DNA of 64,000 bases, from positions 3,423,353-3,487,352 of the forward strand of contig NC_011831.1 in the NCBI RefSeq assembly GCF_000021945.1, written 5' to 3'. This document shows, in pieces, positions 12,442 through 33,411 of this stretch (position 1 is its first letter; every line of letters begins with the position of its first letter). A model generated the notes under the pieces. It made no database searches, had not been told where the DNA came from, and saw nothing but the letters and a program-made list of their open reading frames with translations. The translations under genes and the position numbers were made by a program. Source of the stretch: Chloroflexus aggregans DSM 9485. GTDB taxonomy: Bacteria > Chloroflexota > Chloroflexia > Chloroflexales > Chloroflexaceae.

Positions 12442-13383
12442 ATGAAGATGAGCAAGGCGCAGTATAAATACGGTGGGCAAGCAGTACTCGAAGGGGTGAT
12501 GATGCGCGGTCGTCGGCAGGCAACGGTTGTCGTGCGTCGGCCTGACGGCAGCTTTGCTCGGCTCGATCTGCCAATACCAGAACGTCACGCTCGCTGGCAA
12601 CGGTGGCCATTGTTGCGCGGATTTGCCGCTTTAGCCGAAGCATTGACGATTGGGCGTAAAGCGTTGGATTTCTCGGCTACAGTCGTTGCTGCTGAGGAAG
12701 AAGATCGGTTGTCACCATGGATGCAGACGCTGATCTTTGCCGTGACGATGGTCATTGCAATCGGTGTATTTGTCGTTCTGCCGTCGTTGGTTGCCAACGC
12801 TATCGGCCAACTGGGTGCGCCGGTGTTGCTGCGTGAAGTGATCGAGGCGCTGATCAATCTGGCCCTCGTTGTTGCCTATATCGCTGCGATTGGCCGTATT
12901 CCCGATATTGGCCGGGTGTTCGGTTATCATGGTGCTGAACATAAAGTCATCAATGCGTATGAAGCCGGTTTGCCGCTAACGGTCGAGTCAGTGCGGCAGT
13001 GTAGTCGTATCCACCCGCGCTGTGGAACCAGCTTTTTGCTGGCGGTGGCACTGATCGGGTTTCTTATCTTCTTATCGGTGGCCGTCTTGCCGGTATGGCA
13101 GCGGATTATCGCTCGGATCGTGTTGATCCCATTGGTCGCAGCAGTAGCTTTTGAAGTTCAACAACTCGCCGCAAACTATTATCATTTGCCATGGGTGCGT
13201 TGGTTGTTGGCGCCGACGTTGGCTGCCCAATACCTGACAACTCGTGAGCCAAATGATGATATGATTGAAACAGCCATCGCCGCGTTGGAGCCGGTGCTTG
13301 CCGCCGATCAGGTTGTGAACGCTCAACCGGCGGTCATGGTTGATGTTGTTTCTGGTTTGGCCGATACGCAGCCAACTATGTAA
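12442..13383 (+). CDS. DUF1385 (YqhQ-like) membrane protein
   Basis: 313 residues. The family signature is clear: KYGGQAVLEGVMMRGRRQ at the N-terminus, then FGYHGAEHKVINAYE and IHPRCGTSFLL in the second half, with four or so membrane helices between and after. DUF1385 proteins are widespread in Firmicutes, Chloroflexota and Thermotogae; the role is not established, and the conserved His/Glu/Cys residues hint at metal binding. A second ATG 6 nt downstream is also possible. Length is typical. Confidence 0.9.
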   Translation: MKMSKAQYKYGGQAVLEGVMMRGRRQATVVVRRPDGSFARLDLPIPERHARWQRWPLLRGFAALAEALTIGRKALDFSATVVAAEEEDRLSPWMQTLIFAVTMVIAIGVFVVLPSLVANAIGQLGAPVLLREVIEALINLALVVAYIAAIGRIPDIGRVFGYHGAEHKVINAYEAGLPLTVESVRQCSRIHPRCGTSFLLAVALIGFLIFLSVAVLPVWQRIIARIVLIPLVAAVAFEVQQLAANYYHLPWVRWLLAPTLAAQYLTTREPNDDMIETAIAALEPVLAADQVVNAQPAVMVDVVSGLADTQPTM

Positions 13384-13436: not shown

Positions 13437-14249
13437 ATGGCGCTAGTAGGGAACATCCGCGATTTTAGCTTATCAGATTTTCTTTCACTCGTTGATCGCG
13501 GGTATAAAACGGGCGCCCTGCATCTGTCATACCAGGATCAAACGGCACGCCTCTACTTTGATAAGGGAAAATTGCTACTGGCTGCTCGGCGTCCAGAGGA
13601 CGAGAAACCGGAGTTGTTGGTGCGGTTGGGGGTGCTGAATGCCGATCAGGTGGCACAGGCTTGTCGGGCGTTGGCCGCGCACGGGAATGGTGCCACGCTC
13701 AGCCAGGTTATCATTGAGACTGGGATGACAAGTGCCGAGCGGTTACAACAGGCGCTGATGAACCATACCGAGCAATCGGTCTATGGCTTGTTTGCGTGGC
13801 CAGAAGGGGATTTTCTCTTCGAGCATAATCAGCGTCCGGCACCTGATGCGCCGTTAGTGCCGGTGCCGATCTCGATCGATCATCTCATTATGGAAGGGGT
13901 GCGCCGGATCGATGAATGGGAACGGATCCGTGACCGAATTCCTTCGACCGATCTGGTGCCGCGCTTTTTGGCCCCACCGGGTGAAAAGCTTAAGGGTATG
14001 CGCCTCGCCCCGGATGAGTGGAAGGTGTTTGCCCGCATTAATGGCCGTGATACGTTGGCTGAAATTGCCCAAAAGACCGGGTTGAGTGATTTTGATGTGT
14101 GCCGCGCGGTCTACGGTTTCTTGACCGCCGGTATGCTGGAGTTGGTGAAACGTCAGCGTGTTTTGGCAACCGGTATGCCGCCGGTTGAACAGCCGCGTTT
14201 GAAGAAGAGCCTCGTTAACCGGATCATCAATCGGATCCGCAGCATGTAG
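13437..14249 (+). CDS. DUF4388 domain protein
   Basis: 270 residues, start preceded by GGAGG. The first ~100 residues (LVGNIRDFSLSDFLSLVDRGYKTG, LYFDKGKLLLA) form the DUF4388 fold, common in Chloroflexota, Deinococcota and Myxococcota signalling proteins. Residues ~180-260 (LAPDEWKVFARINGRDTLAEIAQKTGLSD) resemble a winged-helix element found in the same proteins. It is followed 31 bp later by a Ras-like GTPase gene, a pairing known from MglA-type systems, so it is probably a partner or regulator of that GTPase. Confidence 0.87.
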   Translation: MALVGNIRDFSLSDFLSLVDRGYKTGALHLSYQDQTARLYFDKGKLLLAARRPEDEKPELLVRLGVLNADQVAQACRALAAHGNGATLSQVIIETGMTSAERLQQALMNHTEQSVYGLFAWPEGDFLFEHNQRPAPDAPLVPVPISIDHLIMEGVRRIDEWERIRDRIPSTDLVPRFLAPPGEKLKGMRLAPDEWKVFARINGRDTLAEIAQKTGLSDFDVCRAVYGFLTAGMLELVKRQRVLATGMPPVEQPRLKKSLVNRIINRIRSM

Positions 14250-14280: not shown

Positions 14281-14811
14281 GTGCAGACGGTAAAGATGGT
14301 GATCAGCGGTGCCGTGAACGCCGGCAAGACCGAGTTTATCAAGACGATCTCTGAGATCGAGGTCGTCTCGACGGAGCGCCGGGCGACCGACGATACTCGA
14401 CTGATCAAAAAGGAAACAACTGTCGCGATGGATTTCGGGCGCATCGCGATCTCTGATGATCTCGTGCTCCATCTCTTTGGGACGCCGGGACAAAAGCGAT
14501 TCGACTTTATGTGGGAGATCCTTGCTGAAGGTATGCTGGGGCTGGTGATCCTCGTCGATAGCACGCGCCCGGAGACGTTCCGTGAGACGAACCGGATCAT
14601 CGATTTCTTCGTGTCGTATCGCGATACGCCATACGTGATTGCGGCCAATAAGCAGGATCGTCCGAATGCATGGTCGCCGGAAGAGTTGCGGTTGGCTCTG
14701 CGTCAGCCGCCGCATATTAAGGTTTTGCCCTGTACGGCGACCGATCGCGAGAGTGTGAAGAATGTCTTGCTCGAGTTGCTCTATGTGATTCAAGAGCGGA
14801 GCGAAGATTGA
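14281..14811 (+). CDS. Small Ras-like GTPase (MglA/CvnD type)
   Basis: 176 residues, GTG start with GGAGGG upstream. P-loop GAVNAGKT at residues 10-17, switch-II region LHLFGTPGQKRFDFMW near 60-75, and specificity motif NKQD at 123-126 identify a prokaryotic Ras-superfamily GTPase. Relatives include MglA of myxobacteria and CvnD of actinobacterial conservons, which work with roadblock-domain activators. In this window the only roadblock gene is 17 kb away, at 32.4 kb. The GTPase gene pairs with DUF4388 and ends before a strong terminator. Confidence 0.9.
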   Translation: MQTVKMVISGAVNAGKTEFIKTISEIEVVSTERRATDDTRLIKKETTVAMDFGRIAISDDLVLHLFGTPGQKRFDFMWEILAEGMLGLVILVDSTRPETFRETNRIIDFFVSYRDTPYVIAANKQDRPNAWSPEELRLALRQPPHIKVLPCTATDRESVKNVLLELLYVIQERSED

Positions 14812-17211: not shown

Positions 17212-18168
17212 ATGTTAAACCGTCTTTTTGGTCGCGGTAACCGTCAGCAGACCGATACCCGTCTATCGGTCGTTCGTGGCGATCGTCCCGGTGTACCGAT
17301 ACGGTTGAAGGTAGCGATGATCGTTCACGATCCGCCAATTCCCGAACGGGGTGGGGCAGTGCTGAGTCGGGTGATGGGCTGGTACGAGGCCGATATGTTG
17401 GCCGAGCAGTATATTGCCGATCTCCGTGCGTGTTCGGGGGGGATTGCCGATTATCAGATTGTGATGCGGCGATACTATACCGATTTTCCGGTCAAAATTG
17501 ATGGTTTTCGGTACAACAGCGCGACGTATTTGGCAGCTTGGGAACGGCGTATTCCGTTTCATCAACCCGATGAAGCCGATTATGAGCGATTACTCGACCA
17601 AATCGGGTTGGCTGATGAGATTGCGCGTGGTGAGATTGATGAACTTTGGCTGTTTGGTTTCCCCTACGCCGGCTACTACGAAAGCCGGATGATCGGCGCC
17701 GATGCCTTTTGGTGTAATGCCCCGCCCTTACGTTTACCCAATGTGCAACGCCGCTACATTGTCATGGGGTTTAACGTCGAACGCGATGTAGGATGTATGC
17801 TCGAAAATTTTGGCCATCGCGTCGAGTCGATTATGGCCCACGTCTATCGCCACCATCCCCCAGAGCGTAATCTGTGGGTACGTTTCACCCGACTCGATGA
17901 GTGTGGTAACGTTCATTTTGCCCCCTCAAGTGAGCGTGACTACGATTGGGGTAATCCACGACCGGTGTGGTCACGGGCCGATGCCTGGTATCAGTTTCCC
18001 GACTTGAATGGACCGGCCCGACTAATGCACTGTGCCGAGTGGGGTGGTGGTGATATGCGTCTGCACCATCTCTGGTGGCTCGATCACCTGCCGCGGGTTG
18101 CCGGTGAGACCGATGGCGTGCTCAATAACTGGTGGCAGTATGTATTGCAGCCATGGATAGTGGTATGA
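17212..18168 (+). CDS. Unknown conserved-looking protein upstream of a two-component system
   Basis: 318 residues from the ATG at 17212, chosen for a GGAG about 8 nt upstream; a longer start at 17149 runs into the divergent promoter. No family is recognised. It has no signal peptide or membrane helix. It is rich in aromatic residues, with clusters such as NAPPLRLPNVQRRYIVMGFN, VESIMAHVYRHHPPE and CAEWGGGDMRLHHLWWLDHL, and many conserved-looking His, Asp and Cys, which suggests an enzyme or metal site. The stop overlaps the histidine-kinase start (ATGA), so it is translationally coupled to the signalling genes. Confidence 0.6.
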   Translation: MLNRLFGRGNRQQTDTRLSVVRGDRPGVPIRLKVAMIVHDPPIPERGGAVLSRVMGWYEADMLAEQYIADLRACSGGIADYQIVMRRYYTDFPVKIDGFRYNSATYLAAWERRIPFHQPDEADYERLLDQIGLADEIARGEIDELWLFGFPYAGYYESRMIGADAFWCNAPPLRLPNVQRRYIVMGFNVERDVGCMLENFGHRVESIMAHVYRHHPPERNLWVRFTRLDECGNVHFAPSSERDYDWGNPRPVWSRADAWYQFPDLNGPARLMHCAEWGGGDMRLHHLWWLDHLPRVAGETDGVLNNWWQYVLQPWIVV

Positions 18169-19433
18169 AGCCGGTTGAGCAATTGGTGCAACGCTGGCAG
18201 CAGATGATACACTATTTCGGTAGTGGGCAGCGCACGCTCATGCTGGCCGCGTATGCGATGATCAGTACTGCGCTGGTCGAGTTTATCCTCTTTCATCGCC
18301 AGTTGCCACCAGAGCGATTTTATGTGGTGATCGTGCTGTTGAGTGTCTTGCTCTCCCTCAACGCCGTCTGGGAGCGATTGCAGCAGCGTTGGGGTAACGC
18401 AATTGCCGATAGAGTCTTTTTTAGTACCAGCTCCATCATCTTTCTAGCTGCTAATTATATTGGATTGGACGCCGGTTGGACGTTTTTACCGTTTTTGTTG
18501 TTTGTGATTGCATCGCAGGCGATTGTGGGGCTGGGTGTTTGGCGTGGGTTAGGTGTCAGTCTGCTCTTGTACCTCGGTTGGTGTGGGGTGCTCTGGCTGC
18601 GTGGAGTGCCGCTCATCCAGATTGTTGTCCAGGCCCCGTCGATTGCCTTAGGATTGATCTTTGTCCTGATCTTTTCTATCGTTGCTGCACGGCTCGTTGA
18701 ACAAACAGCGCGTGCTGAGCGGTTGGCGGCTGAATTGCAGTCCGTAAACGTGGCATTGGCAGCAGCACGTGAACGGGAGGTAGAGCTTGCTGCTGCCGAG
18801 GAACGGGTACGGCTGGCGCGCGAGATACACGACGGGTTGGGGCACCATCTTACGGCGCTGAACGTACAATTGCAAGCCGCTGCGCGCTTGCTCAACCGTG
18901 ATCCAGAGCGAGCGGCACAGGCATTGGCGATCTGTCGCGAAGAGGCGCAAGCGGCGTTGAATGAGGTGCGACAAAGCGTGGCAGTGATGCGTAACGCACC
19001 GGTAAACGGGCGTCCGTTGCCGGAGGTCATCGCGAAACTGGTGGCCGATTTTAAGCGTGTTTCGCCGTTGCATGTGCAGTTTGTGGTTGAGGGAGAGATT
19101 GGTGAATTGCCGCTGACTGTTGCTATGGCGCTCTACCGTGCGGTACAAGAGGGCTTGACCAACGCGCAGAAGCACGGCCAGGGTACGACGGTGACGGTAC
19201 GGCTGATCGGTGAAGTTGGGCAGGTGCGCTTGGAGGTGGTGAACGATGGCCCACCGGCCCCGCCGGTGGCTGAAACCGGCTTTGGCCTGGCCGGCTTGCG
19301 CGAACGGGCAGCTCGGTTAGGGGGAACGTTGCACGCTGAACCGCTCCCAGCGGGCGGGTTCCGCTTGGCGATGGTTGTGCCACACGTACAAACAGAGGAG
19401 AAGCCGTATGATCCGCATTCTGTTGGTCGATGA
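18165..19433 (+). CDS. NarL-type sensor histidine kinase
   Basis: 422 residues from the ATG at 18165, overlapping the previous stop (ATGA). Residues ~20-190 hold about six membrane helices without a large external loop, so the signal is probably sensed in the membrane, as in DesK/LiaS-type kinases. A coiled coil follows, then the HisKA_3 motif EERVRLAREIHDGLGHHLTALN with the phospho-His, and the ATPase motifs VQEGLTNAQKHG, VVNDGPPAPP and GFGLAGLRERAARLGG. The regulator gene starts within its 3' end, so the two form a pair. Confidence 0.92.
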   Translation: MKPVEQLVQRWQQMIHYFGSGQRTLMLAAYAMISTALVEFILFHRQLPPERFYVVIVLLSVLLSLNAVWERLQQRWGNAIADRVFFSTSSIIFLAANYIGLDAGWTFLPFLLFVIASQAIVGLGVWRGLGVSLLLYLGWCGVLWLRGVPLIQIVVQAPSIALGLIFVLIFSIVAARLVEQTARAERLAAELQSVNVALAAAREREVELAAAEERVRLAREIHDGLGHHLTALNVQLQAAARLLNRDPERAAQALAICREEAQAALNEVRQSVAVMRNAPVNGRPLPEVIAKLVADFKRVSPLHVQFVVEGEIGELPLTVAMALYRAVQEGLTNAQKHGQGTTVTVRLIGEVGQVRLEVVNDGPPAPPVAETGFGLAGLRERAARLGGTLHAEPLPAGGFRLAMVVPHVQTEEKPYDPHSVGR

Positions 19434-26182: not shown

Positions 26183-26210
26183 TTGACAGTCCACGCTTTC
26201 TCGCTACAAT
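26183..26210 (+). promoter_or_regulatory. Sigma-70-type promoter of the 26.2-kb membrane-protein gene
   Basis: A perfect -35 TTGACA (26183-26188) and TACAAT (26205-26210) are separated by 16 nt. The expected start lies near 26217, 30 nt before the ATG. Confidence 0.65.
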
Positions 26211-26246
26211 ACCGGCGTAGTCTGTATATCTGTGGGTACGGATGTG

Positions 26247-26504
26247 ATGGCACACGATCCTTCACCTGCGCGCCGATTACGATGGGCTGTACGTGGCGCG
26301 TTGATCCTGGCGTTCGTGGCAATGGTGTTGGGTGGGTTGTTTACAGCCGTGATCGGTCTATTCACCGGACAACTCTCCTCGGACGCCGGTTGGGAACAGT
26401 GGCTGTCTGTGCTACTCCCTTCAATTCTGATATGGGGCATTGGCGCACTCCCGTTTGGTGCTGCATTGGGCTTTTTTGCCTCACATATCTGGCGTGAAGT
26501 TTGA
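26247..26504 (+). CDS. Small two-helix hypothetical membrane protein
   Basis: 85 residues from the ATG at 26247; a GTG at 26232 in frame is an alternative. A basic N-terminus (RRLRWAVRG) precedes two hydrophobic helices (about 17-42 and 55-80). No family recognised. The stop codon overlaps the -35 box of the tRNA-Pro promoter. Confidence 0.6.
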   Translation: MAHDPSPARRLRWAVRGALILAFVAMVLGGLFTAVIGLFTGQLSSDAGWEQWLSVLLPSILIWGIGALPFGAALGFFASHIWREV

Positions 26505-26529
26505 CTCTTCGCCTTAACCGGGGTATAAT
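26501..26529 (+). promoter_or_regulatory. Promoter of tRNA-Pro
   Basis: TTGACT (26501-26506) and a perfect TATAAT (26524-26529) with a 17-nt spacer; the mature tRNA begins 12 nt further on. Confidence 0.8.
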
Positions 26530-26540
26530 CAAGGCGCGTT

Positions 26541-26617
26541 CGGGGCGTAGCGCAGACCGGTAGCGCACCTGAATGGGGTTCAGGAGGTCGCTGGTTCAAA
26601 TCCAGTCGCCCCGACCA
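26541..26617 (+). tRNA. tRNA-Pro(GGG)
   Basis: 77 nt that fold into a standard cloverleaf. The acceptor stem CGGGGCG pairs with CGCCCCG, the D-stem GCGC/GCGC encloses loop AGACCGGTA, and the anticodon stem CCTGA/TCAGG encloses ATGGGGT, giving anticodon GGG. The T-arm is GCTGG-TTCAAAT-CCAGT. The discriminator base A and CCA (26615-26617) are encoded. Confidence 0.96.
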
Positions 26618-26624
26618 TACGGTG

Positions 26625-26654
26625 AACGCTGGCGAGGTATTGCTTGCCAGCGTT
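26625..26654 (+). terminator. Hairpin after tRNA-Pro
   Basis: A 9-bp perfect stem, AACGCTGGC (26625-26633) and GCCAGCGTT (26646-26654), begins 8 nt after the tRNA CCA end. The following sequence is only moderately T-rich, so termination strength is uncertain. Confidence 0.6.
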
Positions 26655-26860
26655 TGCGTATTGTTGTGCATTTTCCTCGTTTCGTAAACAGTCTTTTCGC
26701 CGGCGATACCGTAAAATGAGCGATTGTTCTTGACACCTCCCATGATTCAGCGCTATACTGCAAGCATGTGGCGAATACCATTCGCGCTGCTATTGCGTTC
26801 CCTCAACGCATAACTTCTCTTTTTCAGGCGGCGCCAACACATCATGTGGGAGGAACCGGG

Positions 26861-29800
26861 ATGGCGACTATTAGCCTGCAAGATGCCTACACACAAGCCA
26901 GAACATTCCTCGAGGCAAACCAGATTGAGCAGGCGATTGGCCTGACCCAACACATTCTCACCTACCATCCCGATAATTTAGAAGCGCAGCGTATTCTCGG
27001 CGAAGCGTATTTAGCACAACGCGATTTATCGGCCGCAATTGCTACGTTTGAGCAAGTGTTACAGGCCGATCCAGAAAATATCCCGGCCCACGTTGGTCTT
27101 GGCATGGCGTATGAGTGGCAAGGCCGTCTTGATAAGGCAATTGCTGAATTCGAGCAAGCGCTAGAAATTCGGCCTGACATGCCCGAATTACGCGCTCAGT
27201 TGGTGCGCCTCTACACCGAGGCTTGGGGTAGCGAGCACGCCGCGTTGCGCCTCAGCCGCTCTGGTTTGGCACGCCTGTATGCGCGTGGTTATATGCTGCC
27301 ACAGGCGATCAATGAATTCAAGCACTTTATCACTGAACATCCTGAACGCCTTGATGCCTGGGTTGGTTTGATCGAGGCCCTGTGGCGTCATAGTCAACTC
27401 GATGAAGCTGCTGAAACGTGTCGCAAAGCGTTGCAGCTTAGTCCTCATTTGCTGAAAGCTCATCTTGTCCTCGGTACGATCTTGCTTCAGAAGGGCGACC
27501 AGAGTGGGATCGAACATTGGCGAGCTGCGCAACGACTCGATCCCTATCAGACGGTCGCTAGTGTGTTGTTCGAGCAGTTGCCGGTCGGTGTGCCGATTCC
27601 CGATGTGTCACTACCGGCATGGGACGAAGCAGAGTGGCGGGCGAAGCGGGCTGCCGCTGCTGCGCCGGCAGCAACTGCACCGGTTGATGATTTCTTTGCT
27701 GACGAGAGTTGGCTGACACCGGCGGTACAGCCGGCTCCGGTTGCTGCCGGTGTTTCAGATGATGATTTATTGGCGATGCTGCTCTTTTCACCTCCGGCTA
27801 CCCAGGTCGTTGAGTCACGACCGGCGGTTGTGGGGGGAGATGACTTTGATGCTTTCAATTTGTCCGGTGCAAAGGTGACCCCTACCGGCTTGACTCTCGA
27901 TGAGATTGGTGTGAAAGTTCCGGAGCCATCTGCCGAGCCAGAGCTGCAGCCGTTTTCGCTGGAAGATTTGGGGTTGTCGGCGGAGGAGATCGCGCAGCTT
28001 GAGGGGACGGCGGCGCCAAGCGCGTCTGCTGAGCCGGAACTAAAGCCGTTTTCGCTGGAAGATTTGGGGTTGTCGGCGGAGGAGATCGCGCAGCTTGAGG
28101 GGACGGCGGCGCCAAGCACGTCTGCTGAGCCGGAACTAAAGCCGTTTTCGCTGGAAGATTTGGGGTTGTCGGCGGAGGAGATCGCGCAGCTTGAGGGGAC
28201 GGCGGCGCCAAGCACGTCTGCTGAGCCGGAACTAAAGCCGTTTTCGCTGGAAGATTTGGGGTTGTCGGCGGAGGAGATCGCGCAGCTTGAGGGGACGGCG
28301 GCGCCAAGTACAGGTAGTACATCAATTACCGATGAGTTTGGTGATCTGCAACCCTTCTCGTTGGATGATCTAGATTTTGGTGCAGGCTCAATCGGCGAAG
28401 ATTTGCCACCTTCGCTCCAGCCTTTCTCGCTTGACGATTTGTCGCTCGATGAGGCAGCGGCTGATTCACCACCGGCCGAGTCGATTGAACCGGGTATTTA
28501 CAGTTGGCAAGCACCGTCAGCGCGTAGTGGCGGTATCCAATTGCCGAAAGAATCGGAACCGAGTGGACCGTCGATCTTTAGCAAGTTGGTTGAGCGTGCT
28601 GCTTCATTGCCACGCGCAGAAGAGCCTTCACTGAGTTCGGTGGAGTTAACCGAGGCCGATATCAATGCCTATTTCTCGAACGATGATGTGTCGTTGCGGG
28701 AAGATGATGGTTCACCGGAACGGTTGACCGGTACGTTCCGTCTGCCCAAGGTGGGTCTTGATGAGAGTTTGGTGCCATCCGGTGCAGTAAGTGCGCTGAC
28801 CGGTAAGGCTGAAGGGTCGGAGACTGCGGAGAGTGAAGAGTCACTGCCATTCTCGCTGACTGAGCCGGAGCTGCAACCGTTCTCGTTGGAAGAGCTGGGG
28901 TTGTCGCCGGAGGAGATAGCACAGCTTGAGGCGGTGCAGCGCGGGGAGCCGGCAGCCCCGGCAGCCCCGGCCGAGCCGGAGCTGCAACCGTTCTCGCTGG
29001 AAGAGCTGGGGTTGTCGCCGGAGGAGATAGCACAGCTTGAGGCGGTGCAGCGCGGGGAGCCGGCAGCCCCGGCAGCCCCGGCCGAGCCGGAGCTGCAACC
29101 GTTCTCGCTGGAAGAGCTGGGGCTGTCGCCGGAGGAGATAGCACAGCTTGAGGCGGCGCAGCGCGGGGAGCAGGCAGCCCCGGCAGCCCCGGCCGAACCG
29201 GAGCTGCAACCGTTCTCGCTGGAAGAGCTGGGGCTGTCGCCGGAGGAGATAGCACAGCTTGAGGCGGCGCAGCGCGGGGAGCAGGCAGCCCCGGCAGCCC
29301 CGGCCGAACCGGAGCTGCAACCGTTCTCGCTGGAAGAGCTGGGGCTGTCGCCGGAGGAAATAGCACAGCTTGAGGCGGTGCAGCGCGGGGAGCCGGCAGC
29401 CCCGGCAGCCCCGGCCGAGCCGGAGCTGCAACCGTTCTCGCTGGAAGAGCTGGGGCTGTCGCCGGAGGAGATAGCACAGCTTGAGGCGGCGCAGCGCGGG
29501 GAGCAGGCAGCCCCGGCAGCCCCGGCCGAACCGGAGCTGCAACCGTTCTCGCTGGAAGAGCTGGGGCTGTCGCCGGAGGAAATAGCACAGCTTGAGGCGG
29601 CGCAGCGCGGGGAGCCGGCAGCCCCGGCAGCCCCGGCCGAACCGGAGCTGCAACCGTTCTCGCTGGAAGAGCTGGGGCTGTCGCCGGAGGAAATAGCACA
29701 GCTTGAGGCGGCGCAGCGCGGGGAGCCGGCAGCCCCGGCAGCCCCGGCCGAGCCGGAGCTGCAACCGTTCTCGCTGGAAGAGCTGGGGTTGTCGCCGGAG

Positions 29801-32377
29801 GAGATAGCACAGCTTGAGGCGGCGCAGCGCGGGGAGCCGGCAGCCCCGGCAGCCCCTGCGGAACCGGAGCTGCAACCGTTCTCGCTGGAAGAGCTGGGGC
29901 TGTCGCCGGAGGAGATAGCACAGCTTGAGGCGGCGCAGCGCGGGGAGCCGGCAGCCCCGGCAGCCCCTGCGGAGCCGGAGCTGCAACCGTTCTCGCTGGA
30001 AGAGCTGGGGTTGTCGCCGGAGGAGATAGCACAGCTTGAGGCGGCGCAGCGCGGGGAGCCGGCAGCCCCGGCAGCCCCGGCCGAGCCGGAGCTGCAACCG
30101 TTCTCGCTGGAAGAGCTGGGGTTGTCGCCGGAGGAGATAGCACAGCTTGAGGCGGCGCAGCGCGGGGAACAGGCGGCACTGCCATCGGAACGAAAGACAG
30201 TACCGGTCGTCGATGAGCCGATTGAAAGCTTACTAACGCCCGGTGATGCTGGTGATGTCTTTACGCCGACCGGAGCCGATTCATCGATCGGACTTACCGA
30301 TTTAGAGCCTTTCTCGTTTGAAGAATTTGGCGATCTCGAACCTTTCTCGTTTGAGGATTTAGAGGGTGGTACAGTCGAGGGTGGTGAATTAGCTATTTCC
30401 CCTGAAGAGATTGATACTCTGAACATTGGCAACTTCGAGACGGTAGTCTTCTCGGATGATGAAGAGCCGATGATTGATACCGGCGATCCTGTACTTAACC
30501 GTCTGATCCAATTAGGCCATCGCCAAGGCTACGTCGATATTACCGACATCATCGCAGTGGTGCAGGACCCTGAACGAGAGGCTGAGCGGATTGAGCAAAT
30601 TGGCTGGTCACTTCATCGCGCAGGGATTCAGATCCGTGATGGTGACGAGATTATCGATATGGAAGCTGAGCTTGGTGAAGAGGATACATCGGCTATGCCG
30701 ATAGCTGATGCTGATTTGACACCTTTTGCTGAAGAGCTGCCGTCGGCTGTACTAGAAGCTGATCTGACGCCGTTCGCTGAGGAATTACCCTCGACACCGC
30801 CTGCGGAGCCGGAGCTGCAACCGTTCTCGCTGGAAGAGCTGGGGTTGTCGCCGGAGGAGATAGCACAGCTTGAGGCGGTGCAGCGTGGGGAGCCGGCAGC
30901 CCCGGCAGCTCCGGCCGAGCCGGAGCTGCAGCCGTTCTCGCTGGAAGAGCTGGGGTTGTCGCCGGAGGAGATAGCACAGCTTGAGGCGGTGCAGCGTGGG
31001 GAGCCGGCAGCCCCGGCAGCCCCGGCCGAGCCGGAGCTGCAGCCGTTCTCGCTGGAAGAGCTGGGGTTGTCGCCGGAGGAGATAGCACAGCTTGAGGCGG
31101 CGCAACGTGAGGTGCAGGCAGCCCCGGCTGAGCCGGAGCTGCAACCGTTCTCGCTAGAAGAGCTGGGGCTATCGCCGGAGGAGATAGCGCAGCTTGAGGC
31201 GGCGCAGCGCGGGGAGCCGGCAGCCCCGGCAGCCCCGGCCGAGCCGGAGCTGCAACCGTTCTCGCTGGAAGAGCTGGGGTTGTCGCCGGAGGAGATAGCA
31301 CAGCTTGAGGCGGCGCAGCGCGGGGAGCCGGCAGCCCCGGCAGCCCCTGCGGAGCCGGAGCTGCAACCGTTCTCGCTGGAAGAGCTGGGGTTGTCGCCGG
31401 AGGAGATAGCACAGCTTGAGGCGGCGCAGCGCGGGGAGCCGGCAGCCCCTGCGGAGCCGGAGCTGAAGCCGTTCTCGCTGGAAGAGCTGGGGCTGTCGCC
31501 GGAGGAGATTGCGCAGCTTGAGGCGGCGCAGCGCGGGGAGCCGGCAGCCCCGGCAGCCCCGGCCGAGCCGGAGCTGCAACCGTTCTCGCTGGAAGAGCTG
31601 GGGCTGTCGCCGGAGGAGATAGCACAGCTTGAGGCGGCGCAGCGCAGTACACAATCCGAGCAGCCTGCTGAGACTACGGCTGAAGACGACTTGTTCGATT
31701 TCAGTATTGCGGAAACTGTTCCGGTCGCGAAGGCTGTACGTACAGCGCCACGGGTTGAGGAGCCGCAACCGGCACCGAAACCGGAAGATATGGGCTTTGT
31801 CCCTGAGCCACTCGACGCGCTTGACGATATTTGGCAGGCGCCACCTGAACCGAAGACGCCGGAGCCGGCACGAGTAGTGTTGCCGCCCTTAAGTGAACGT
31901 CCCAAGCCACAGCCGGTTGCACGTGCGGTGTCGGCTGAAGAGCGTCGCAGTGTTGCGCCAACCCGTGATGATCTCCGCTTTGCGCGCCGTGAAGCAGCCA
32001 GTAGTGGTCGGGGACGCTCAGCGCGCGCACCACTTCGGCCCCGCGCGCCCGAGGACTTCATCCCAACGGGGAATGCAAAACTCGATGAATATTTACGGCA
32101 GTTAAGTGCGAATCCGACTAATCATACGTTGGCCTTCACAATTGCCCGACTCTGTGCGCAGACCGGGCATGCCGAATTGATGGCAGTAGTCTATCGTCGC
32201 TTGCTCAAGCAGCATACCCTGCTTGAGCGGATGGCCGAGGAGTTGGAGGATCTGATCAACACTGTTGACGATACGACCGTCCTCCGCCACCTACACCGGT
32301 TGCTTGGCGATGTCTACTCGCGGCAAGGTCGGTTGGATGAGGCAATTGCCGCGTACAGTGTAACTTTTGCTGAATAA
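26861..32377 (+). CDS. Giant TPR protein with 24 PFSLEELGL modules and a sigma-1.1-like domain
   Basis: 1,838 residues from the ATG at 26861 (GGGAGGAA upstream); an in-frame start at 26768 has no such site. Residues 1-240 are TPR repeats (LGEAYLAQRDLSAAIATFEQ, LGMAYEWQGRLDKAIAEFEQ). A long acidic, Pro/Ala-rich region then carries three blocks of a module centred on ELQPFSLEELGLSPEEIAQL: 4 copies of 32 residues, 12 of 37 residues and 8 of 34-37 residues, plus degenerate copies (LQPFSLDDL, LTPFAEELPS). Residues ~1207-1266, between blocks two and three, read LNRLIQLGHRQGYVDITDII then SLHRAGIQIRD, resembling sigma-70 region 1.1. The last ~110 residues return to TPR-like helices. There is no membrane segment. 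It is probably a cytoplasmic scaffold with many short binding motifs. The roadblock gene follows 63 bp later. Confidence 0.85.
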   Translation: MATISLQDAYTQARTFLEANQIEQAIGLTQHILTYHPDNLEAQRILGEAYLAQRDLSAAIATFEQVLQADPENIPAHVGLGMAYEWQGRLDKAIAEFEQALEIRPDMPELRAQLVRLYTEAWGSEHAALRLSRSGLARLYARGYMLPQAINEFKHFITEHPERLDAWVGLIEALWRHSQLDEAAETCRKALQLSPHLLKAHLVLGTILLQKGDQSGIEHWRAAQRLDPYQTVASVLFEQLPVGVPIPDVSLPAWDEAEWRAKRAAAAAPAATAPVDDFFADESWLTPAVQPAPVAAGVSDDDLLAMLLFSPPATQVVESRPAVVGGDDFDAFNLSGAKVTPTGLTLDEIGVKVPEPSAEPELQPFSLEDLGLSAEEIAQLEGTAAPSASAEPELKPFSLEDLGLSAEEIAQLEGTAAPSTSAEPELKPFSLEDLGLSAEEIAQLEGTAAPSTSAEPELKPFSLEDLGLSAEEIAQLEGTAAPSTGSTSITDEFGDLQPFSLDDLDFGAGSIGEDLPPSLQPFSLDDLSLDEAAADSPPAESIEPGIYSWQAPSARSGGIQLPKESEPSGPSIFSKLVERAASLPRAEEPSLSSVELTEADINAYFSNDDVSLREDDGSPERLTGTFRLPKVGLDESLVPSGAVSALTGKAEGSETAESEESLPFSLTEPELQPFSLEELGLSPEEIAQLEAVQRGEPAAPAAPAEPELQPFSLEELGLSPEEIAQLEAVQRGEPAAPAAPAEPELQPFSLEELGLSPEEIAQLEAAQRGEQAAPAAPAEPELQPFSLEELGLSPEEIAQLEAAQRGEQAAPAAPAEPELQPFSLEELGLSPEEIAQLEAVQRGEPAAPAAPAEPELQPFSLEELGLSPEEIAQLEAAQRGEQAAPAAPAEPELQPFSLEELGLSPEEIAQLEAAQRGEPAAPAAPAEPELQPFSLEELGLSPEEIAQLEAAQRGEPAAPAAPAEPELQPFSLEELGLSPEEIAQLEAAQRGEPAAPAAPAEPELQPFSLEELGLSPEEIAQLEAAQRGEPAAPAAPAEPELQPFSLEELGLSPEEIAQLEAAQRGEPAAPAAPAEPELQPFSLEELGLSPEEIAQLEAAQRGEQAALPSERKTVPVVDEPIESLLTPGDAGDVFTPTGADSSIGLTDLEPFSFEEFGDLEPFSFEDLEGGTVEGGELAISPEEIDTLNIGNFETVVFSDDEEPMIDTGDPVLNRLIQLGHRQGYVDITDIIAVVQDPEREAERIEQIGWSLHRAGIQIRDGDEIIDMEAELGEEDTSAMPIADADLTPFAEELPSAVLEADLTPFAEELPSTPPAEPELQPFSLEELGLSPEEIAQLEAVQRGEPAAPAAPAEPELQPFSLEELGLSPEEIAQLEAVQRGEPAAPAAPAEPELQPFSLEELGLSPEEIAQLEAAQREVQAAPAEPELQPFSLEELGLSPEEIAQLEAAQRGEPAAPAAPAEPELQPFSLEELGLSPEEIAQLEAAQRGEPAAPAAPAEPELQPFSLEELGLSPEEIAQLEAAQRGEPAAPAEPELKPFSLEELGLSPEEIAQLEAAQRGEPAAPAAPAEPELQPFSLEELGLSPEEIAQLEAAQRSTQSEQPAETTAEDDLFDFSIAETVPVAKAVRTAPRVEEPQPAPKPEDMGFVPEPLDALDDIWQAPPEPKTPEPARVVLPPLSERPKPQPVARAVSAEERRSVAPTRDDLRFARREAASSGRGRSARAPLRPRAPEDFIPTGNAKLDEYLRQLSANPTNHTLAFTIARLCAQTGHAELMAVVYRRLLKQHTLLERMAEELEDLINTVDDTTVLRHLHRLLGDVYSRQGRLDEAIAAYSVTFAE
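27929..28312 (+). repeat. Coding tandem repeat block 1 (4 x 96 bp)
   Basis: Four 96-bp units within the TPR protein gene; the later unit starts, marked by TCTGCTGAGCCGGAAC, fall at 28025, 28121 and 28217. Each encodes 32 residues around LKPFSLEDLGLSAEEIAQLE. Copies two to four are nearly identical in DNA. Confidence 0.95.
28862..30175 (+). repeat. Coding tandem repeat block 2 (12 x 111 bp)
   Basis: Twelve units of 111 bp, starting with GAGCCGGAGCTGCAACCG at 28862 and every 111 bp to 30083. Each encodes 37 residues: the PFSLEELGLSPEEIAQLEA core and a RGEPAAPAAPA linker. Variation between copies is limited to a few sites (V/A after LEA, P/Q after RGE, synonymous changes), so the copies are recent or homogenised. 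Confidence 0.97.
30806..31646 (+). repeat. Coding tandem repeat block 3 (8 units of ~102-111 bp)
   Basis: Eight further copies of the block-2 module after the sigma-1.1-like domain. Copy three has a changed, shortened linker (REVQAAPA) and copy six a shortened one (RGEPAAPA); copy seven has LKPFS in place of LQPFS. The linker is where length changes occur, while the core stays fixed. Confidence 0.95.
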
Positions 32378-32440
32378 CAGGGATCCGTCTCTTTCTAGAC
32401 GAAAGTAGTCTCTAAGATGGCACCACAAGAAAGGTTTAGC

Positions 32441-32788
32441 ATGCGCCGTATCGTAGAAGATCTCATTCGGGTCGATGGGGTCATCGGTAGCCTATTGGTT
32501 GGCAAAGATGGTCTGGTTGTCGCCAGTACGCTGCTCGATGAAGAAGATGCTGAGATACTAGGCGCAATGTCGGCGGCTGTCTTCGGCGAAATCGACAAAG
32601 CGACCCGGCGGCTTGGTGTCGGTAATCTCGTCGACTCGATTATCGATGCGAAAGATGGTTCAATCTTACTGCTTGAGGCAAAAGATTTGATCCTTGTCGT
32701 GATCACGCAGCGTACCGTCAATCTCGGGTTGGTGAAGATGGAGATGCGTCGTGCAGCAAAGCGAATTAGTGAAGCGGTGCCGATCTAA
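32441..32788 (+). CDS. Roadblock/LC7 domain protein
   Basis: 115 residues from the ATG at 32441, chosen because AAAGG lies 6 nt upstream; an in-frame ATG at 32417 would add MAPQERFS. The chain is one roadblock/LC7 domain: RIVEDLIRVDGVIGSLLVGKDGLVVAST, then ILLLEAKDLILVVIT and a C-terminal helix. MglB-like roadblock proteins are activators or partners of Ras-like GTPases such as the one at 14.3 kb. Here it follows the giant TPR protein and ends before a strong terminator, so the two may form a complex with the GTPase; that is inference. Confidence 0.9.
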   Translation: MRRIVEDLIRVDGVIGSLLVGKDGLVVASTLLDEEDAEILGAMSAAVFGEIDKATRRLGVGNLVDSIIDAKDGSILLLEAKDLILVVITQRTVNLGLVKMEMRRAAKRISEAVPI

Positions 32789-32819
32789 ATAAGTGTGAAG
32801 GCTGGATGATTTGGGGCGA

Positions 32820-32850
32820 AGGCAACGCACAGCGTTGCCTTTATATTTTG
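32820..32850 (+). terminator. Strong Rho-independent terminator
   Basis: A 9-bp stem, AGGCAACGC (32820-32828) and GCGTTGCCT (32832-32840), with loop ACA, is followed by TTATATTTTG. It ends the TPR-roadblock transcript. Confidence 0.9.
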
Positions 32851-32955: not shown

Positions 32956-33411
32956 ATGGAACGCGCATTACTGATTTTAAAACCTGATGCTGTCCAGCGA
33001 GGGCTGATCGGAGCGATCATCAGCCGATTTGAACAGCGTGGGTTGAAGTTTCAAGGTCTCAAGCTGATGCAAGTTGATGAAGCGCTCGCCCGCCGTCACT
33101 ATGCCGAGCACGAGGGCAAGAGCTTCTTTGAAGGTTTGGTGAAATACATCACGTCGGCGCCGGTGGTGGTAGCTGTTGTAGCCGGGAAGCCGGGCACGGT
33201 CGAATTGGTGCGAACAATGGTTGGCGCAACCAATCCGGCGAAGGCAGCACCGGGTACGATCCGTGGCGATTTTGGTGTGGATATTGGTCGAAATCTGATC
33301 CATGCCTCTGATTCACCGGAGAGTGGAGAACGAGAAACGGCCATTTTCTTTCAACCCCACGAACTCATCGGTGATTGGAACCGTACCCTTGATGGTTGGA
33401 TCTACGAGTAG
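32956..33411 (+). CDS. ndk: Nucleoside diphosphate kinase
   Basis: 151 residues, GAGG upstream. It opens ERALLILKPDAVQRGLIG and has the active-site motif NLIHASDS with phospho-His116. It moves the gamma phosphate between nucleoside triphosphates and diphosphates. A -10-like TATACT lies at 32906-32911. Length is normal for bacterial Ndk (140-152). Confidence 0.97.
   Translation: MERALLILKPDAVQRGLIGAIISRFEQRGLKFQGLKLMQVDEALARRHYAEHEGKSFFEGLVKYITSAPVVVAVVAGKPGTVELVRTMVGATNPAKAAPGTIRGDFGVDIGRNLIHASDSPESGERETAIFFQPHELIGDWNRTLDGWIYE

Follow-up and report, generated by a model that had tools for sequence, protein, structure and literature searches.

Why should a bacterial protein carry two dozen near-identical copies of one short motif between two tetratricopeptide repeat (TPR) ends, and what does the small Roadblock/LC7 gene behind it have to do with them? 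The question is raised by a stop-free frame at 26861..32377 on the forward strand of a 64,000-nucleotide stretch of DNA from Chloroflexus aggregans, here called the window (positions 3,423,353-3,487,352 of a single-contig genome of 4,684,931 bases). The encoded protein of 1,838 residues, termed the giant below, would in our tentative reading, which we hold to be a little short of probable, represent in Chloroflexus a phylum-wide and undescribed scaffold family of TPR-disordered-TPR build, which brings together the roadblock protein and a GTP-regenerating kinase. What we computed comprises gene order, orthology, constraint on the modules, a two-helix model of the module and a sigma-70 region 1.1 domain; the mechanism is what we infer from them.

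The giant and the genes that stay beside it

Translation, Pfam, a structural model of the C end and a genome-wide pattern search all agree with the preliminary description of this locus as one frame of 1,838 residues with TPR ends and 24 modules. The domains follow each other in the order TPR, linker, four modules, linker, twelve modules, sigma-70 region 1.1, eight modules, linker and C-terminal TPR-like domain. The N-terminal domain (26861..27661, +; residues 1 to about 240, with a conserved peptide and a helix up to residue 267) matches TPR_19 in Pfam with an expect value (E) of 2.1e-24 and is modelled by AlphaFold2 in blocks with a predicted confidence (pLDDT) of 88-99. This model matches the consensus TPR superhelix 8chy in Foldseek (E 1.4e-10) and nothing more specific than a TPR superhelix, and the TPR models of NCBIfam match the giant below their cut-offs only. 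The C-terminal domain (32057..32374, +) comes out in the model as an array of TPR-like helices at a pLDDT of about 88-92. Tandem TPR helices, found by Pfam and in the structural model, place the giant among the TPR proteins.

Behind the giant lies the Roadblock/LC7 gene (32417..32788, +), whose product matches Robl_LC7 (PF03259, E 1.6e-17) and bacterial roadblock structures in the PDB (best E 8.4e-14; top entries 7f8m, 7yh1 and 9jue); NCBIfam gave no match for it. The gene is real, as had been proposed, but the 63-nucleotide gap reported with it fits only the second possible start, an ATG at 32441 (MRRIVEDL) near the alignment start of the orthologues in other genera, and the first ATG stands 39 nucleotides past the giant's stop.

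Gene order was counted over 73 loci, one per genome, that were fetched for carrying the giant or the roadblock gene; they are a subset of such genomes, the giant is present in them by way of collection, and most loci ending inside the giant were left out. A larger locus set, with adjacency in 139/155, counts some genomes twice, and the 73 loci were used instead. The roadblock gene adjoins the giant, within a limit of 700 nucleotides, in 53 of the 73, which supports the earlier naming of the roadblock as a partner and makes it a long-lived partner gene; the count includes L110 by hand, where the giant frame is broken and the roadblock gene follows its C end, and leaves out L138, where the gene lies beyond the limit. 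The most constant neighbour of the giant is the gene for nucleoside diphosphate kinase (NDK; 32956..33411, +; NDK E 7.8e-53). The preliminary description named the roadblock neighbour correctly but omitted both NDK and the region 1.1 domain. Counted as adjacent when it comes next on the same strand at a distance of up to 1.5 kb, NDK closes the row giant-(roadblock)-NDK in 63 of the 73 loci, and it stands directly behind the giant, with a gap of 24-167 nucleotides, in 11 of the 19 loci that have no roadblock gene.

This adjacency reaches across families. It is found in 4/4 loci of Chloroflexus, 13/13 of the rest of family f1, 5/5 of f2, 5/5 of f3, 6/6 of f4, 4/5 of g27 and g34 together and in the one locus of G335. 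It is also found in 13/14 loci of f24 (Ktedonobacteraceae), 1/1 of f40, 1/2 of f43, 1/1 of f17, 3/3 of f5, 3/3 of f13 and 3/10 from ten further families with the giant only. A plain search of the 69 non-Chloroflexus loci recovered NDK in 59, compared with 0-13 for eight other neighbours in the window (CN-hydrolase 0, TrpA 4, FmdA 0, DAHP synthase 3, FtsW 13 and three further genes 0-5); outside Chloroflexales the counts are 26/35 for NDK and 0-1/35 for each of the eight.

We surveyed the order through 82 Chloroflexales genomes and the phylum through 400 Chloroflexota genomes drawn for the purpose; these are relatives, so no P value is claimed. The giant is matched in 79 of the 82 (E 1e-8), and in its own genome it has one strong locus, the other eight matches being at E 2.4e-8 or weaker. 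A roadblock orthologue (at least 79% identity) is present in 62 order genomes. Any roadblock match (E 1e-4) is present in 68, which include G028 and five genomes with paralogue-level matches only (G002, G004, G023, G061 and G062), and at this threshold 14 genomes gave no match. Over the phylum, the N-terminal TPR profile was found in 144 of 400 genomes (E 1e-40), the roadblock profile in 81 (E 1e-18) and the small GTPase discussed below in 75 (E 1e-30); the giant is present in 78 of these 81 and in 73 of these 75. A further set of 80 loci, from 85 relatives found, includes those of Herpetosiphon aurantiacus, Ktedonobacter racemifer, Thermogemmatispora and Dictyobacter. In 50 of these loci a giant with the N-terminal TPR domain adjoins the roadblock gene, and 29 more have the giant's C-terminal domain (3.9 kb away in L195; L172 lacks room at a contig end), a scan by peptide patterns that could miss more distant relatives, including those in other phyla. 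On this sequence evidence the giant family is phylum-wide in Chloroflexota.

Distances between the N-terminal TPR domains follow those between the roadblock proteins, with r 0.86 over 52 loci; for Chloroflexales alone r is 0.61, or 0.79 when G028 is left out. These figures include shared ancestry and come with no control protein. In G028, a large draft with 6% contamination, the roadblock protein is 50% identical and encoded about 3.9 kb from the giant's C end (L195/L102, one contig), the branch of the N-terminal TPR domain is long, and the GTPase is 92% identical; the rate of the TPR domain therefore appears to be tied to the roadblock protein rather than to the GTPase.

Some further observations concern single loci. 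A contig filed as Candidatus Gracilibacteria (L179) has, behind the C end of a giant, a roadblock gene with 89% identity to the query, and this filing is probably a binning error. The roadblock matches of G019, G049 and G372 each count one in-frame stop, which may lie before the true start. A tRNA gene (26541-26614, Rfam score 62.8) closely precedes the giant in the window and is overlapped by a reverse-strand open reading frame (26204-26743) with no Pfam match.

The MglA-like GTPase and its joint absence with the roadblock gene

A GTPase with a DUF4388 partner had been noted 12 kb upstream of the giant, and the pair is there: a DUF4388 protein (13437..14249, +), whose link to the scaffold is a candidate one, and an MglA-like small GTPase (14281..14811, +), a candidate client that ends 12.0 kb before the giant. 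A DUF1385 protein (12442-13383) lies upstream of the two. The PDB matches of the GTPase include MglA (3t12, E 3.7e-7), and the best ones are Arf GTPases. Its G3 stretch reads FGTPGQ, without the G3 aspartate; a passage in one published account has this aspartate kept by all but MglA (PMC4316618).

Proximity of the GTPase to the giant was rejected as evidence of partnership. The interval is 11-42 kb in five other Chloroflexus genomes and at least 0.39 Mb in G042, G064 and G070, the three other Chloroflexales seen with both genes on one contig, and in most of the order the two are not physically linked. In family f71, G270 and G330 carry the GTPase about 8 kb from the giant, and L226, from G270, shows no roadblock gene beside it.

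The GTPase is present in 64 of the 82 order genomes (E 1e-15). At this threshold it is absent from all 14 genomes that have no roadblock match, several of which are incomplete drafts (60-99% complete), and it alone is absent from four more (G029, G041, G052 and G053). In the tree of the N-terminal TPR domain, g27 and g34, which are without roadblock gene, GTPase and modules, group as a single clade (support 92/89, under the tool's star level), and G050, which keeps three strict modules, lost the roadblock gene and the GTPase separately; the absences therefore amount to about two co-losses, not fourteen. Among 104 giant-bearing genomes outside the order, the roadblock gene was found in 41, the GTPase in 35, both in one (G335) and neither in 29, the figure of 41 being a lower bound, as the cut-off misses f5 genes that a local profile search catches. 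The two are thus jointly absent within Chloroflexales (14/14) but seldom jointly present outside it (1/104). Modules that are widespread in the absence of roadblock or GTPase genes would speak against the preliminary proposal, and one genome of this kind is known to us, G050.

What the modules may bind

The modules lie in three blocks on the forward strand: four copies of a 96-nucleotide unit (PFSLEDLGLSAEEIAQL) at 27929..28308, twelve copies of a 111-nucleotide unit (PFSLEELGLSPEEIAQL) at 28862..30168, and eight copies in units of 102 or 111 nucleotides at 30806..31645. The degenerate core pattern P-F-[ST]-L-x-[DE]-L-G-L has 24 matches in the 4.68 Mb genome, all of them in the giant gene and on its strand, and none in a control; shuffled linkers hold 0.00 modules on average compared with the 24 observed. 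A genome-wide motif is ruled out by the same count, 24/24 matches being inside the giant gene. In the AlphaFold2 model each of the first four modules takes the form of two short helices, with ten-residue blocks at a mean pLDDT of 71-84 over the modules and 49-65 between them, and the linkers between modules are, to judge by this model, probably disordered. A set of 260 different cores, drawn from the window and 39 fetched giants, shows conservation also at positions not fixed by the seed (A 87%, L 87%, and E 70% three residues ahead of the leading L or M). The number of strict copies per giant ranges from 0 to 24, with several giants ending at contig edges, and the core is kept across families as the spacers vary. 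Pfam matches to Terminase_6, FGAR-AT_linker, Ketoacyl-synt_C and KRAB in the repeat region, and to DUF1127 in the Herpetosiphon giant L052, were set aside as composition artefacts, since no stretch passes alone. Among the anti-phage models of PADLOC the one match is of 33 residues of the repeat region to DpdF (E 2.2e-6), with no stretch passing alone, and the giant was not assigned to a known defence system.

More than one motif is carried on this scaffold. Linkers of the PFSL type occur in Chloroflexales and, by a looser pattern, in G335 (7 copies) and f5 (1-5 copies). A P-x-W-L type occurs in f13, f74, f83, f45, f68, f71 and f19, at 5-23 copies compared with 0.1-1.0 in shuffles, and in four of eight Ktedonobacteraceae giants scanned (5-15 copies); giants of f40, f43 and f17 hold 0-1 modules of either type. 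We presume that f13 and its like are Anaerolineae and that f5 is Thermomicrobia. The giants L222, L223, L227, L228 and L239 (f13, f74 and f83) have 10-23 P-x-W-L copies in their disordered part, resembling a second docking alphabet. The giant L134 (5135-8896) has 11 EEPDW[MIV]KQ repeats and is preceded by an M16 peptidase gene; similar proteins, as judged by eye, precede L125 and L130. In the f5 linker of L230, repeats around GYTxxLDSLDAxGMEPFDP may be a third type.

If the giant is a scaffold, its TPR ends would bind the partners that stay constant, be it the roadblock protein, the kinase or the two together, and its disordered middle would offer a short helical docking motif many times over to recruit a clade-specific client, of the PFSL or the PDWL type, with module copy number setting the valency. 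Such a multivalent assembly would place a GTPase regulator beside a GTP-regenerating enzyme and so permit local control of GTP-dependent switching, for which the MglA-like GTPase would be the likeliest switch in Chloroflexales. The most far-reaching version of this proposal is a new signalling hub: a phylum-wide multivalent scaffold with roadblock and NDK, regenerating GTP at a Ras-like switch, with exchangeable docking alphabets (PFSL and PDWL) and, in Chloroflexales, a coupling to transcription through region 1.1. Taken as a whole, we regard that version as doubtful.

Several findings weigh against the scaffold reading. NDK is not adjacent in 10 of the 73 loci (L067, L128, L232 and seven loci from the families with the giant only), and the gene neighbourhood may reflect co-regulation alone. 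The GTPase has no match (E 1e-30) in any Ktedonobacteraceae genome of the draw and therefore cannot be a universal client. When the giant's C end and the roadblock protein were folded as one through-read chain, blocks of the roadblock part had low means of 30-59, a result of an alignment that holds 11 similar rows, and this fold has no bearing on docking. A terminator-like hairpin (32818..32842, +) sits between the roadblock gene and NDK in the window; a terminator had been placed after the roadblock gene earlier, and the hairpin is there, but the structure scan found four hairpins in the window against a shuffle mean of 5.6, which is no excess.

Each module could instead dock a roadblock protein or its GTPase, with module number counting their copies, much as was first proposed. 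In the g27 and g34 giants modules and roadblock gene are indeed both lost (a roadblock match in 0/13 genomes and no strict modules in five giants, with one weak profile match in L069), and most order genomes with PFSL modules have both the roadblock gene and the GTPase. However, g27 and g34 are one clade, and their co-loss is probably one event. The main evidence against such docking is that eight module-bearing giants have no adjoining roadblock gene (L099 of the PFSL type; L222, L223, L226, L227, L228, L238 and L239 of the PDWL type). Conversely, L125, L135, L224 and L232 have the roadblock gene but hold 0-1 modules, whichever type is counted. Roadblock and modules are thus separable, which weakens the case for docking on the modules; the original claim is not supported, and we consider this explanation unlikely.

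An explanation that we judge similarly improbable is that the modules bind the scaffold's own TPR ends, in which case the protein would self-assemble into a network or condensate, with roadblock and NDK attached. Short peptides are common ligands of TPR grooves, and low-confidence, probably disordered linkers space the modules. Against it, the TPR ends persist in the module-free giants of g34 and g27, so the ends serve another use.

The domain between the second and third module blocks (30479..30682, +; residues 1207-1274) brings in a transcription-linked alternative, in which region 1.1 would be a tether to RNA polymerase or a competitor of the housekeeping sigma factor. The domain scores 24.4 bits against Sigma70_r1_1 in Pfam (cut-off 22.5) and aligns with region 1.1 of the organism's own RpoD over 60 columns at 33% identity. 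Its profile matches PDB entry 2k6x (E 1.5e-4), which we take to be region 1.1 of T. maritima RpoD, and other sigma factors mixed with unrelated coils; coiled segments of coronavirus spike, second in this list (best E 6.4e-4), were taken as coil similarity. The domain is above the Pfam cut-off in four of five Chloroflexales giants scanned (the window, Herpetosiphon L052, L064 and L100 of g27), the g34 giant L067 not exceeding it, and was found by sequence in 36 loci. The five f3 loci, g34 and the 18 giants searched from outside the order (L124-L141) gave no match to it, which makes it an add-on, and some of the remaining loci without it are incomplete giants. No other sigma region (1.2, 2, 3 or 4) was found in the giant among the best 25 of 30 Pfam families. 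We think a primarily transcriptional role quite improbable.

The modules are under purifying selection in Chloroflexus. They were located by their first nine residues, which leaves the second half (eight codons) free, and twelve codons served as flanks. Over four pairs of Chloroflexus genomes, the ratio of nonsynonymous to synonymous change (pN/pS) is 0.085-0.16 in the second half and 0.29-0.57 in the flanks, with pS 0.51-0.78 in the second half. The two free codons of the first half are mixed, at 0.08-0.12 in three Chloroflexus pairs and 0.88 between the window and L041, where pS is only 0.075. In more distant giants (L042, L052 and L064) the values are 0.35-0.47 for the second half and 0.57-0.97 for the flanks. 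Location by the full pattern gives 0.018-0.06 for the core between the window and other Chloroflexus genomes, an underestimate, since most core residues are dictated by that pattern; with a loose PF anchor, under which 4-7 PF sites per gene outside the modules are counted as well, the values are 0.28-0.42 after PF and 0.42-0.67 in the flanks. That the repeats are an inert low-complexity expansion by slippage, with no binding role, agrees with the near-identity of the tandem copies (90-97% matches), their variable number and the smaller contrast under the loose anchor, but is largely contradicted by the low pN of the free second half (0.07-0.12, compared with 0.21-0.34 in the flanks) and by a core kept while spacers differ across families, and we hold it to be very improbable indeed.

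The order is conserved from Chloroflexales to Ktedonobacteraceae and several further families, over which other neighbours drop away, and this suggests that its function is a basic one. The lineages that have lost roadblock, modules or both, and the two motif alphabets on one scaffold, are natural experiments. They bear on two questions: is small-GTPase control in bacteria coupled to regeneration of GTP on the spot, and does the number of motif copies tune a bacterial scaffold?

Relation to known systems

The statement that no described system has this layout stands within the openly licensed literature that we searched: its titles and abstract starts held no description of such a giant-roadblock-NDK system, which is weak evidence of absence. 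SgmX is reportedly a TPR protein that works with MglA in Myxococcus and is tied to the GTPase/roadblock pathway. We know of no PFSL modules, region 1.1 or NDK linkage in SgmX, which by description sets the giant apart from it. A primary sigma-70 factor shares region 1.1 with the giant, which differs in having, among the best 25 of 30 Pfam families, neither of the promoter-recognition regions 2 and 4.

The MglA-MglB system of Myxococcus and Thermus is closer in its parts. We take MglB to be the roadblock GTPase-activating protein (GAP) of the Ras-like MglA, and a GAP activity of the window's roadblock protein is putative. The likeness consists in a Roadblock/LC7 protein that matches the MglB structure 6h5b (E 5.5e-5) and in an MglA-type GTPase elsewhere in the genome. 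The arrangement differs: the roadblock gene stands beside the TPR giant and NDK rather than beside the GTPase, and the best PDB matches of its product are other roadblock proteins, not MglB. The gene coupling of MglA and MglB is lacking here, as roadblock gene and GTPase are 17.6 kb apart in the window and, in the non-Chloroflexus order genomes compared, sit on different contigs or 0.39 Mb or more apart.

Actinobacterial conservons (CvnA-D) also contain a roadblock protein, and that of the window resembles CvnB (3leq, cvnB5, E 1.7e-9). A conservon, in a passage of one published account, is a contiguous set of genes for a histidine kinase, a roadblock protein, a CvnC-type protein and a GTPase (PMC13343842). 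The roadblock gene of the window has neither a histidine kinase nor a GTPase adjoining it, and a histidine kinase gene stands 13 kb upstream (18132-19433); its neighbours are instead the TPR giant and NDK.

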